Shown here piece after piece: positions 3,028 to 11,112 of a stretch of 32,826 nucleotides of DNA. The DNA comes from Chloroflexota bacterium (GTDB taxonomy: Bacteria; Chloroflexota; Anaerolineae; DUEN01), in contig JAADGJ010000047.1 of NCBI GenBank assembly GCA_013152435.1, forward strand, positions 1 to 32,826, written 5' to 3'. How positions within the stretch are numbered: position 1 is the first letter of the stretch; each line of letters opens with the position of its first letter. The notes under the pieces are model-generated. The model was not told where the DNA came from, ran no database searches, and saw nothing but the letters and a program-made list of their open reading frames with translations. Position numbers and translations under genes: made by a program.

Positions 3028-3104
<77 letters not shown>

Positions 3105-6918: not shown

Positions 6919-8034
6919 TCAACGATGAGGCAGCTCCCCCTCCAGGACGTAATGCCGCAGCTCCGTCACGCTCAGATTCTCGATGCCCAGCTTGTCCAAC
7001 GTGCGGCCGCGGCGCCAGTAGTCCGTGCCATGGATGATGCACGCCAGCTGGATGATGGCCTCCATCCCCCGCACGGAGACGCCATACCGGGCCCCCAGGG
7101 AGGCGATGGGCACCAGGCTCATGGGCACGTCCTCGAAGATGTATCGATGCTCCAACGTGCGCGGGGCCTTGATGCCATAGTAGCCGGGATTGGCATGAAT
7201 GGCCTCGTTCAGATTCGATCCACGGGCGTCATACGCCATCCGCAGCCACTCGATCGCCGACCGCACCTCAATGCCCAACGCGGCCGCCACCGTGATGCGC
7301 TCCCGATCCAACACCTCCAGCACGCGTGCCACGGAGGGCGTCACCCCGTCGATGTAGAACTGAAACTCCCCACGGGTGGACTCGATGCGCCCCGCGTTCA
7401 GGATCGTCAGGGCCGGGTGAAAGATGGCCCCCATATTGTTCAGGCTGGTGTGCAACACGTCCTTGCCATCGATAAATTGGGGATACGCATCCGTGAGAGC
7501 CTCCAACACCGCCCCCGTGCGAAAGGCGGGCAGGGCAGCCAGAGGCACGGCCTCCTTGATGCGGAAGATCCGCACCTGCGCCGGGCCAACGGAGCGGCTG
7601 GCGTAGATGAAGGTCTCCGTCTCCGCCACGGTCACCCGGGCCGTACACCCCTCGTCCCGCAACACCTTGACGAACTCCAGGGTGCCGCCGGTTCGCCCGG
7701 GATTGAGAACCACGATCTGATCGTCCTGCAGATAGGGCGCCATCGACATGGCCACATCCCGGTGGGCCGAGGATGGCACCACCACCATGATCACCTCGGC
7801 GCCATCCAGCGCCTCTTGGATGTCCGAAGTCACACGCTCCAGCCGGGCGAACCCGTGGGGCCCGCCGTCGAAGCTCTCCAAATCGAGCCCTCGACGCAGC
7901 CGGATCGCCTCAATGTGACCGGGCGTTCGATTATAGAGGGTGACGGGGAACCCCTTCAGTGCCAGGTGAGCGGCCATCGCCTTGCCGCCATGTCCAGCGC
8001 CCACGATCGTAAAGCGAGTCACTTCTTGAGTCAT
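6919..8034 (-). CDS. Opine (octopine/nopaline) dehydrogenase-family NAD(P) enzyme
   Basis: A 371-aa dehydrogenase. The N-terminal Rossmann domain has the dinucleotide motif FTIVGAGHGGKAMAAHLALKG, and it continues to AEVIMVVVPSSAHRDV, typical of glycerol-3-phosphate- and opine-dehydrogenase-like proteins. The C-terminal half (about 180-370) carries the octopine-dehydrogenase helical domain with the conserved NNMGAIFHPALTILNAG segment, whose His is the likely catalytic residue. These enzymes reductively join an amino acid to a 2-oxo acid, or run the reverse. The ATG at 8034 follows GAGAGAGGA and is preferred over a TTG seven codons upstream. It follows the B12-binding gene by 58 bp and is probably co-transcribed with it. 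The substrate cannot be read from sequence. Confidence 0.85.
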   Translation of the reverse strand: MTQEVTRFTIVGAGHGGKAMAAHLALKGFPVTLYNRTPGHIEAIRLRRGLDLESFDGGPHGFARLERVTSDIQEALDGAEVIMVVVPSSAHRDVAMSMAPYLQDDQIVVLNPGRTGGTLEFVKVLRDEGCTARVTVAETETFIYASRSVGPAQVRIFRIKEAVPLAALPAFRTGAVLEALTDAYPQFIDGKDVLHTSLNNMGAIFHPALTILNAGRIESTRGEFQFYIDGVTPSVARVLEVLDRERITVAAALGIEVRSAIEWLRMAYDARGSNLNEAIHANPGYYGIKAPRTLEHRYIFEDVPMSLVPIASLGARYGVSVRGMEAIIQLACIIHGTDYWRRGRTLDKLGIENLSVTELRHYVLEGELPHR

Positions 8035-8092: not shown

Positions 8093-9745
8093 CTACACGT
8101 CCCCAAGCTCCAGCCGAGTGATACGCTCCGCCTCCGAAAGGGGCCGGCGGGTCTCCGGGTCGATGGCCTCACAGCAGCCATTGATGATACGGGTGACGAT
8201 CTGCCCACGAGCGATCGGGCTGTTGCGCAGATGGGGGGCGTCCAGGATGCCCGTCGTGATCGCCCGGGCCAGCGTGCCGGGATCGGCCAGAGGATCCGAG
8301 ACGCCCGGCCCGGCCAGGGAACGAATCGCATCCAGCGTCACCCACGCCTCCGAGATCAGGTGGTCCTTGCGATCCTGCACGGCCGGGTCGGCCGTCATAT
8401 CCGGCGCGCCCCGCAGCGCGTTCTCAATGGCCCGCCGGGCGATGCGCACGCTTTCGATGAGCTCCTCCGCGGTGGTGGCATGATCGGCCTCCGTGGCCCC
8501 CACCACGTGCACGATATGGGGATGCACGGCCATCTGAAGATACACGGAGGCGGCCAGGTGTCCACGAGCCGCCGCCGGCTCCACCGGATAGCTCAACAGG
8601 CCCGTACGCGTCTGCCGGTACACGCGAAACTCCGGCCCGGCCAGCGACTCGGACATCTCAATGCACGCCAGGATCTTGGCCAGATCCATGCGATCGGAGA
8701 CGCCCGCCGGGCTGTTGAACATGTACTGCGCGATGTAATCCCGCACGCCCATGGCGCGGGCATTGTACGCGGACAGGTAGCTGGCGACCACGTAGATGAC
8801 GTCGGGTGCCTCCCGCATTCCCCAATGGTGCGGCTCGTTCACCTCCACCGGGATATCCCGCTGGGCGTACCAGCACATCAACTTCTGATGCTCCCGCAGC
8901 GATCCCTCCAGGTCCCACGGGCCACGGCCGTCCAGCTGATTGAACCAGAACAAGGGGATCGCCGCCCAGGCGATGTGAATCGTCTCCACGTACATCTCGG
9001 CCAGCCGAATGAAATCATCGGTGCCGGTATACGTCCGCATGAGCGGATAGTTCCCCCGCCGGCTGGCGGCGTACAATCGACGGAAGTCCTCGGCGCTGCG
9101 AACGGGCACCCCGCCGGCCCCCTTGCGGCGCGGGTCCTGGCGCTCCGGGTGGAAAAAGTTCTCCTGGGCGTCCTGGTCCGTCCCCAGGGAGATCACATCC
9201 AACACCCGGGATTCGGCGATCTTCTCGATGCCCGCCACGGTATCCTCCACCGTGGGCAGGCCGAAATGGTGGCGGATGATGGGATACGGGGCCTTCCATC
9301 GAATGCGCTCCACCAGCGTCTGCGGATAGGCCTCCTCGCCCTCCTGGGCCACCCGCTCCCCCTTCAGGTACGCGATGACCTCCTCAATGGGCTCCTCCCC
9401 ACTGAAGCAGATCTCGAACAACGCCAGTTTGCGGGCCAACTCCACCACAGGGGGCGTCCCCCCGAAGGCGAAGCGGCGATCCGCCAGCCCAGCCTCGATC
9501 ACAGCCGCCTGGAACTGGCGCAGCAGCGGCTCGGCGGTCTCCGGCATGAGCCGATAGCTCACAGCCACCAACTCGGGATCGTGTTCCCGGATGGCCGCCA
9601 GGAAATCCTCAATGGAGACGGCCGGCCCCAGGAAGACCGTGCGCCATCCCAGCTCCTCCGCCAGATGAAGCACATGAGCGATCCCAGCTACATGTACGCA
9701 CTCCCCCAATGCACCGCCTATCATCACACCAGGAACAGCCACCAT
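8093..9745 (-). CDS. B12-binding-domain protein with a mutase/methyltransferase-like barrel
   Basis: A 550-aa protein. Residues about 4-130 resemble a cobalamin-binding Rossmann domain. The usual D-x-H-x-x-G motif appears as C16-V-H18-V-A-G21: the His that would ligate cobalt is kept, but the first Asp is Cys. From about 150, a TIM-barrel-like region of the glutamate-mutase-epsilon/cobalamin-enzyme kind follows, with IPLFWFNQLDGRGP, EVNEPHHWGMREAPDV and YIAQYMFNSPAGVSDRMDLA as striking conserved blocks. The fused order and size fit a single-chain B12 enzyme. The reaction is unknown, and naming a mutase would be a guess. AGGAGG lies just before the ATG. It is first in an operon with the opine-dehydrogenase-like gene, behind a strong promoter and structured leader. 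Loss of the motif Asp makes true B12 binding uncertain. Confidence 0.75.
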   Translation of the reverse strand: MVAVPGVMIGGALGECVHVAGIAHVLHLAEELGWRTVFLGPAVSIEDFLAAIREHDPELVAVSYRLMPETAEPLLRQFQAAVIEAGLADRRFAFGGTPPVVELARKLALFEICFSGEEPIEEVIAYLKGERVAQEGEEAYPQTLVERIRWKAPYPIIRHHFGLPTVEDTVAGIEKIAESRVLDVISLGTDQDAQENFFHPERQDPRRKGAGGVPVRSAEDFRRLYAASRRGNYPLMRTYTGTDDFIRLAEMYVETIHIAWAAIPLFWFNQLDGRGPWDLEGSLREHQKLMCWYAQRDIPVEVNEPHHWGMREAPDVIYVVASYLSAYNARAMGVRDYIAQYMFNSPAGVSDRMDLAKILACIEMSESLAGPEFRVYRQTRTGLLSYPVEPAAARGHLAASVYLQMAVHPHIVHVVGATEADHATTAEELIESVRIARRAIENALRGAPDMTADPAVQDRKDHLISEAWVTLDAIRSLAGPGVSDPLADPGTLARAITTGILDAPHLRNSPIARGQIVTRIINGCCEAIDPETRRPLSEAERITRLELGDV

Positions 9746-9861
9746 TCGCCTCCTGTGGTAGGTTCATGATCGCGAAAGCCGAAGACGAGGATGTATCCGC
9801 CCAAGAAGACGGGGCAGATGTGCGAAGAGCCCGAAGAAGCCCCCAAGCCCCCGACGCAAAA

Positions 9862-10030
9862 AATGGGCCAGGAACGAACCTGGCCCACTGATCACGAAGA
9901 AACGGCTTCCGACGGTTACGTCGCAGATATTCCGTTGAGACGGCCCCAACCCCACGGAGCCAGACAGAGCCTGGACCGGGCTCATCGCAGTTAGGCAGGC
10001 AAACTCCGCACCAGGATCGTCCTAGAGTTC
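9862..10030 (-). ncRNA. Candidate structured small RNA or regulatory leader
   Basis: Between a near-perfect promoter (-10 at 10038-10043) and an intrinsic terminator (9866-9889) lies a GC-rich transcript of about 165 nt with no reading frame that has a ribosome-binding site. Short hairpins can be drawn on the minus strand: CGACG-TAAC-CGTCG near 9910-9923, CCGT-CTCA-ACGG near 9932-9943, and GAGCC/GGCTC near 9966-9982. The ATG of the B12-domain gene is about 120 nt past the terminator. It could therefore be a stand-alone RNA of 6S-like size or an attenuating leader of that operon. It lacks the cobalamin-riboswitch B12 box, and I could not match it to any RNA family. Confidence 0.5.
9866..9889 (-). 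terminator. Intrinsic terminator upstream of the B12-domain gene
   Basis: On the minus strand, GGGCCAGG-TTCGTT-CCTGGCCC forms an 8-bp GC stem with a 6-nt loop, followed by ATTTTTT. This is a textbook Rho-independent terminator. Its place between the promoter and the coding region is what would be expected of an attenuator, or of the end of a separate small RNA. Confidence 0.85.
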
Positions 10031-10037
10031 ATGAAAC

Positions 10038-10066
10038 ATTATACGGCCCAGCGCACCGGAAGTCAA
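10038..10066 (-). promoter_or_regulatory. Near-consensus sigma70 promoter
   Basis: On the minus strand, TTGACT (10066-10061), a 17-bp spacer and TATAAT (10043-10038). Predicted start is near 10030-10032. This strength is typical of stable RNA genes or highly regulated leaders. It drives the candidate RNA at 9862-10030 and perhaps the B12/opine-dehydrogenase operon beyond. Confidence 0.85.
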
Positions 10067-10299
10067 AAGCACCGGGCCAGCCCCCCATCCAGCATCAACG
10101 GCAGCGCTCGCGCCGCCCCAAAGACTCAGTGATGCTCGAACCTCTATGACGTCGCTCACCGAAATGCACAGCTTCCATCCGGTCAAGTCGTCCCGACGCC
10201 CGGCCTGTGCGCATACGCGGCGGATATGGTAGGATGGAACTGAGTCCGCTCGCCCTTCGGCCGAGCAACGACCCGCGTACAATCCCGAGAGGAGATTTG

Positions 10300-11112
10300 A
10301 TGGCCTCCAGCTCTCACAAGCGTGTCGCCTGGCTGACTGATATCCATCTGGAATTCCTCGAGGCGGGTATGGCCGCCTTTCTCGATCGCCTGGCCGCCTC
10401 CGAGCCGGATATCGTCCTCATCGGCGGCGACACGGGCACCGCCCGCGATGTGATCCCGTTCCTGTACATGCTGGAGAAGAGCCTGCGACGTCCTATCTAC
10501 TTCGTCCTCGGCAACCACGACTTCTACAGAGGCTCGATCCGTCAGGTCCGAGCGGCCGTACAGGAACTCTCCCAAGCCTCACGATGGCTGCGATGGCTCC
10601 CCGCACAGGGGGTTGTACGGATCTCCGACACAACCGGCCTGTTGGGGCACGGTTCGTGGGCAGACGGACGCCTCGGAAACGGGCGGCGCTCGCTGGTCGA
10701 GCTGAACGACTACTACTATATCCAGGAGCTGATGGGACTCTCCCGGGAGGAACGCTTCGAACGGCTCGCCACCCTGGGCGATGAGGCGGCGGCGCACTTT
10801 CGCCGCTGGCTGCCCGAAGCCTGCAGCCGATTCCGGGATATCTTGCTGCTGACCCACGTGCCGCCGTTCCGAGAGGCCAGCCGGCACAAAGGACAGATCT
10901 CCGATGACGAGTCGCTCCCGCATTTCTCCTGCCAGGCAGTCGGCGACGTCCTGCTGGACGTCATGACGCGACACCCAGAGAATCGCCTGACCGTGTTGTG
11001 CGGGCATACGCACAGCCCGGGGGAGGTCTCGATCCTGCCCAACCTCCACGTCAAGACGGGAGGTGCCGAATACGGCCGGCCGGACCTGCAAGAGATCCTC
11101 CTCATCGATTAA
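10300..11112 (+). CDS. Calcineurin-like metallophosphoesterase
   Basis: A 270-aa phosphoesterase with the complete two-metal motif set: Asp14-x-His16 in LTDIHLEF, Asp44 in IGGDTG, Asn72-His73-Asp74 in GNHDFYRG, His186 in LTHVPP, and His236-x-His238 in CGHTHS. It would hydrolyse phosphomono- or diesters; the substrate is unknown. No signal peptide is present, so it is probably cytoplasmic. The ATG at 10300 follows GAGAGGAG and begins just before the first motif. The frame opens 31 codons earlier, but that extension has no ribosome-binding site and reads as non-homologous. It converges with the uracil-DNA glycosylase gene, with a stem-loop between their ends. Confidence 0.9.
   Translation: MASSSHKRVAWLTDIHLEFLEAGMAAFLDRLAASEPDIVLIGGDTGTARDVIPFLYMLEKSLRRPIYFVLGNHDFYRGSIRQVRAAVQELSQASRWLRWLPAQGVVRISDTTGLLGHGSWADGRLGNGRRSLVELNDYYYIQELMGLSREERFERLATLGDEAAAHFRRWLPEACSRFRDILLLTHVPPFREASRHKGQISDDESLPHFSCQAVGDVLLDVMTRHPENRLTVLCGHTHSPGEVSILPNLHVKTGGAEYGRPDLQEILLID

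Follow-up and report, generated by a model that had tools for sequence, protein, structure and literature searches.

A Conserved Promoter–Terminator Leader, Probably a Transcription Attenuator, before a B12-Mutase/Opine-Dehydrogenase Operon in One Genus of Chloroflexota

1. Introduction

Among described RNAs, the c-di-AMP riboswitch (ydaO/yuaA, RF00379) comes closest in genomic position to the leader considered here, as in some relatives it is located before the orthologous operon. In Bacillus thuringiensis, the kdp operon is controlled by a c-di-AMP riboswitch, which acts by promoting intrinsic termination (PMC6488665). Two other points of comparison are 6S RNA (RF00013), which the leader resembles in size, and the orphan leaders regarded as attenuator or riboswitch candidates, with which it shares a promoter, a conserved upstream part, and an intrinsic terminator near the first gene.

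Here, we analyze a leader on the minus strand of the window, i.e., the whole stretch of 32,826 nt examined, which is one contig of a 5-Mb Chloroflexota genome (G000) in 149 contigs. An earlier note, made from the sequence of the window, had proposed an attenuating or riboswitch-type leader, or else a 6S-like small RNA, at this position. The window leader differs from each of the described systems. It matches neither the sequence nor the fold of RF00379, and when scored as a diverged member of that family, using a model based on 25 members from Chloroflexota with filters off, it reached at most about −1 bit. Unlike 6S RNA, it has no Rfam match and is kept before one gene. Unlike orphan leaders in general, it occurs in two genomes of one genus, too few to define a motif by covariation. 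We conclude that it probably acts as a transcription attenuator of a B12-mutase/opine-dehydrogenase operon.

2. Promoter, Predicted Leader RNA, and Terminator in the Window

Table 1. Coordinates, strand, and basis of the features of the leader and its operon in the window.
Feature	Position	Strand	Basis or remark
Sigma-70-type promoter, TTGACT-17-TATAAT	10038..10066	(-)	11/12 consensus matches
Predicted leader RNA, ~170 nt	9858..10031	(-)	Inferred start to end of U run; ends inferred from promoter and terminator
Leader block common to window and G001, ~90 nt	9944..10029	(-)	Local alignment
Candidate conserved hairpin, 5′ arm, GA-Y-CCUGG-UR-CGG-A-GUU	10002..10018	(-)	Two-genome consensus fold
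Candidate conserved hairpin, 3′ arm, AGCCCGGUYCAGGCUC	9967..9982	(-)	Two-genome consensus fold
Intrinsic terminator hairpin	9862..9889	(-)	U run to 9858; core GGGCCAGGTTCGYTCCTGGCCC common to window and G001
Shine-Dalgarno AGGAGG of first gene	9749..9754	(-)	Sequence
First gene, predicted B12-binding domain fused to a glutamate-mutase/aminomutase-like barrel	8093..9745	(-)	Pfam B12-binding; AlphaFold/Foldseek
Second gene, octopine/nopaline-dehydrogenase family protein	6919..8034	(-)	Pfam Octopine_DH, E 4e-48

The leader is bounded by a promoter and an intrinsic terminator, both of which the earlier note had described and both of which are present (Table 1). The promoter exceeds chance, with 0.2 sites of that quality expected in shuffles. 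The terminator is strong, its 11-pair stem leading into a T run; a lax scan expects 0.7 such hairpins by chance, and a stricter scan also recovers it, with a comparable one in ~10% of shuffles. Taken alone, the window terminator is only moderately unusual, and it is its conservation in the sister genome (Section 3) that makes it convincing. The unit defined by these two elements is the one noticed earlier, with a predicted length of ~170 nt instead of ~165 nt, and the first gene, placed by the note ~120 nt further on, has its ATG (9745) 116 nt from the terminator stem. A scan of the window found no promoter-like site between the terminator and the first gene.

The earlier note had also described the leader as GC-rich and able to form hairpins, and this part fares worse. 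The fold of the entire leader has a z-score of −2.8, but this value comes from the terminator: minus the terminator, the fold is no better than shuffles, with z-scores of −0.34 for the window and +0.45 for the sister genome G001. A claim of a structured RNA therefore cannot rest on stability. A search of the leader against Rfam release 15 returned nothing at the gathering threshold, and the minus strand stayed without a match even at E <= 10. This agrees with the remark that no B12 box or familiar riboswitch core is present, and a cobalamin riboswitch was rejected, as the leader matches none of the Rfam cobalamin models.

3. Conservation in the Sister Genome

G001 (DUEN01000075.1, ‘Caldilineae bacterium isolate J4’) is the one other genome compared within the genus of the window. 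At about C213:2207-2405, it has the same unit, consisting of promoter, conserved block, and terminator, before the same B12 gene. The promoter (TTGACA-17-TATAAT, 12/12 consensus matches) sits at the equivalent place, and the terminator has the same 8-bp core as in the window, with a single base difference in the loop. The two leaders align locally with a score of 35, whereas none of 3000 shuffled pairs scored above 16. Four-fold degenerate sites in the neighboring genes are 51% identical between the two genomes, and neutral (synonymous) sites are thus near saturation. The conserved block is single copy in the window genome and in G001, always before the operon.

The two loci differ upstream of the leader. 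In the window, the UDG gene is separated from the leader by a phosphoesterase gene (10207-11112, +), whereas G001 has no such intervening gene, and the UDG stop codon falls inside the promoter spacer. Thus, it is the operon, rather than the upstream gene, that the leader accompanies. On the downstream side, the terminator stem of G001 ends 28 nt before the ATG, with a Shine-Dalgarno in between. This gap leaves no space for a separate promoter, and transcription of the gene would therefore have to cross the terminator. As in an attenuator, the 5′ untranslated region in both genomes contains, downstream of the promoter, an intrinsic terminator. That the first gene would depend on read-through is supported in G001 by this geometry and in the window by the absence of a second promoter-like site.

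4. A Candidate Hairpin in the Conserved Block

The consensus fold of the two sequences contains an imperfect 13-bp hairpin between the two best-conserved strands, in which block columns 12–28 pair with columns 49–64, and every pair forms in both genomes. The hairpin arms are identical at 30/33 positions between the window and G001; of the three differences, two are unpaired and one changes a G-C to a G-U. The apical loop is identical at 9/20 positions, and the contrast between arms and loop, drawn post hoc, gives a Fisher p of 7.5e-4. Each of the 20 consensus pairs is formed by both sequences, with one pair switched from G-U to U-G, a few changes confined to one side, and, from two sequences only, no clear compensatory change and no real covariation. 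The consensus energy of the hairpin is no better than that of column shuffles (60/500 at least as good), and the G001 leader folded alone favors a different structure, not the candidate hairpin. Alternative pairings that might form an antiterminator exist, none of them conserved, and the 5′ arm of the terminator uses different leader segments in the window and in G001.

5. Distribution of the Leader beyond the Genus

The leader block was found neither upstream of ~60 orthologs of the first gene nor at any other position in 298 genomes of the class. A gene-linked riboswitch spread over the class was rejected on the ~60 orthologs that lack the leader. A covariance-model search of 400 genomes of the phylum gave no convincing block: its matches of 22–24 bits are at the level expected from searching 400 genomes, and one weak match that was inspected has no promoter–terminator leader. 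A degenerate pattern scan of genome contigs returned the known relative and four further matches. Three of these four were inspected; they fall within coding regions and look like chance. In the fourth (L079), the match position is identical to that in one of the three. Scanning the orthologs for leader terminators gave 8/70 observed vs 1.8 expected, and those of G062 and G029, read closely, look like the end of an upstream gene before a separate promoter.

On present data, the leader thus appears restricted to one genus (two genomes). Conservation of stems among relatives, on which the earlier note had staked its proposal, holds to the extent that one relative, G001, keeps the stem-forming strands, and fails for the ~60 orthologs without the element.

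6. The Mutase/Opine-Dehydrogenase Operon

At the level of domains (Pfam B12-binding and Octopine_DH), the earlier description of a B12/opine-dehydrogenase operon is correct. The first protein is predicted to be a fused AdoCbl-mutase-like protein. Its AlphaFold model (25 orthologs) has a pLDDT of 83, and the best Foldseek match of the model is glutamate mutase (E 1.4e-14, TM 0.57), with ornithine/lysine aminomutases also matched; no Pfam family covers the C-terminal mutase-like part. The usual B12-binding motif is DxHxxG, and at its site the protein carries an invariant ECVHVAG. The window also has a tRNA gene at 3031-3104 (-). We found no paper on a B12-mutase/opine-dehydrogenase operon, nor on its part in a Chloroflexota c-di-AMP regulon.

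7. Orthologous Operons and c-di-AMP

Immediately upstream of the orthologous operon and in the same orientation, RF00379 occurs in G061, G092, G244, and G076, in the last of these ahead of the opine dehydrogenase gene. These loci (L038:1195-1362, L040:1341-1467, L052:88-224, and L133:9761-9893) come from four families of the class. RF00379 has 74 matches in the 298 genomes of the class, and four before one operon would be far above chance. In addition, genes for two-domain (double) CdAMP_rec receptors precede the B12 gene in G003, G065, G130, and G111. Thus, the operon belongs to the c-di-AMP regulon in part of the class. Genes for a Na+/H+ exchanger and a P-II-like protein are found near the operon in G016, G024, G029, and G003, and an exchanger gene also in G212. 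The loci with CdAMP_rec, P-II-like, or Na+/H+ exchanger genes near the operon include L136:1-2200, L138:2111-3709, L045, L068, and L043.

G003 belongs to the window's own family, and there the riboswitch and the receptor gene have been kept and the B12 gene is a decayed fragment. At this locus (G003:C26; L129:9975-11450), the B12-mutase gene downstream of RF00379 and of the double CdAMP_rec gene has been disrupted by a deletion and by stop codons. Both the window genome and G001 carry genes for a c-di-AMP synthase and for CdAMP_rec proteins, RF00379 was not found in either genome, and the genus of the window has a different leader where relatives carry RF00379. For the majority of orthologous operons, neither RF00379 nor the window-type leader was seen.

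The presence of RF00379 before the operon suggests an osmolyte or ion-stress role, and the Na+/H+ exchanger and c-di-AMP receptor neighbors suggest that the product may be an amino-acid-derived compatible solute.

8. Attenuation and Its Alternatives

If the leader is an attenuator, as we think probable, RNA polymerase would start at the strong promoter and make ~170 nt, and by default transcription would stop at the intrinsic terminator. Expression of the operon would then need read-through, and a signal sensed by the conserved upstream part, i.e., by the two arms of the candidate hairpin, would be expected to alter it. We infer that read-through is regulated in this direction, with the conserved hairpin as the sensor. 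The attenuating or riboswitch-type leader of the earlier note is supported by a unit kept before the same gene and by the position of the G001 terminator. Counting against it are that there are two sequences, with no real covariation between them and no conserved antiterminator, and that all other orthologs examined lack the element.

The main rival, which we regard as unlikely, is an independent small RNA that has a promoter and a terminator of its own, acts in trans, and lies before the operon by coincidence. It would account for a discrete promoter-to-terminator unit with a strong consensus promoter and a conserved sequence, and the terminated product of an attenuator could itself be an abundant RNA. 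However, another promoter would not fit between the terminator and the start codon in G001, the window has no promoter-like site in the same interval, and the unit stays with the operon, one copy per genome and always here, despite a differing upstream neighbor. As transcription in G001 would have to pass the terminator, the attenuator is favored over the free small RNA. The small RNA of the earlier note is disfavored by the same lack of space in G001, and its 6S-like version is rejected, the only 6S match of the window genome being a canonical one elsewhere (C70:22006-22182, L075; 82 bits).

Quite unlikely, in turn, is a constitutive leader, whose strong promoter and partial terminator would set the level of expression, with the block serving as a DNA operator (dyad GAGCC-N7-GGCTC) or as a stabilizing 5′ hairpin. 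The perfect 5-bp dyad in the block and the weak structure statistics of the leader agree with this explanation, but conservation covers both hairpin arms and extends beyond the dyad. An operator ~50–60 bp inside the transcript would also be unusual.

An improbable special case of the attenuator is a new RNA sensor of c-di-AMP, or of a linked osmotic or ionic signal, where relatives have the c-di-AMP riboswitch. The RF00379 loci at orthologous operons would favor it, together with two genomes that have the synthase and CdAMP_rec proteins and in which RF00379 was not found; against this, the argument is indirect, an analogy of regulon, and most orthologous operons have neither RF00379 nor this leader. 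More doubtful again is that the leader represents a new riboswitch class for c-di-AMP, an ion, or the osmolyte product, replacing the known c-di-AMP riboswitch before a B12-dependent osmolyte operon. Leader-peptide (ribosome-coupled) attenuation is highly improbable: the block of both genomes contains ATGAGCCCGGTYCAGGCT (MSPVQA), with a silent difference, but in both genomes the shared ATG lacks a Shine-Dalgarno, and beyond this stretch the reading frames diverge immediately.

9. Implications

For the attenuator, our guess by analogy is that the signal may be osmotic, ionic, or linked to c-di-AMP; a signal of any of these kinds is the first candidate, given the c-di-AMP riboswitches at orthologous operons in other families. 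If true, attenuation at this locus would add an orphan leader with a concrete ligand list, and it points to a part of the Chloroflexota c-di-AMP regulon made up of an AdoCbl-mutase-like enzyme and an opine dehydrogenase.
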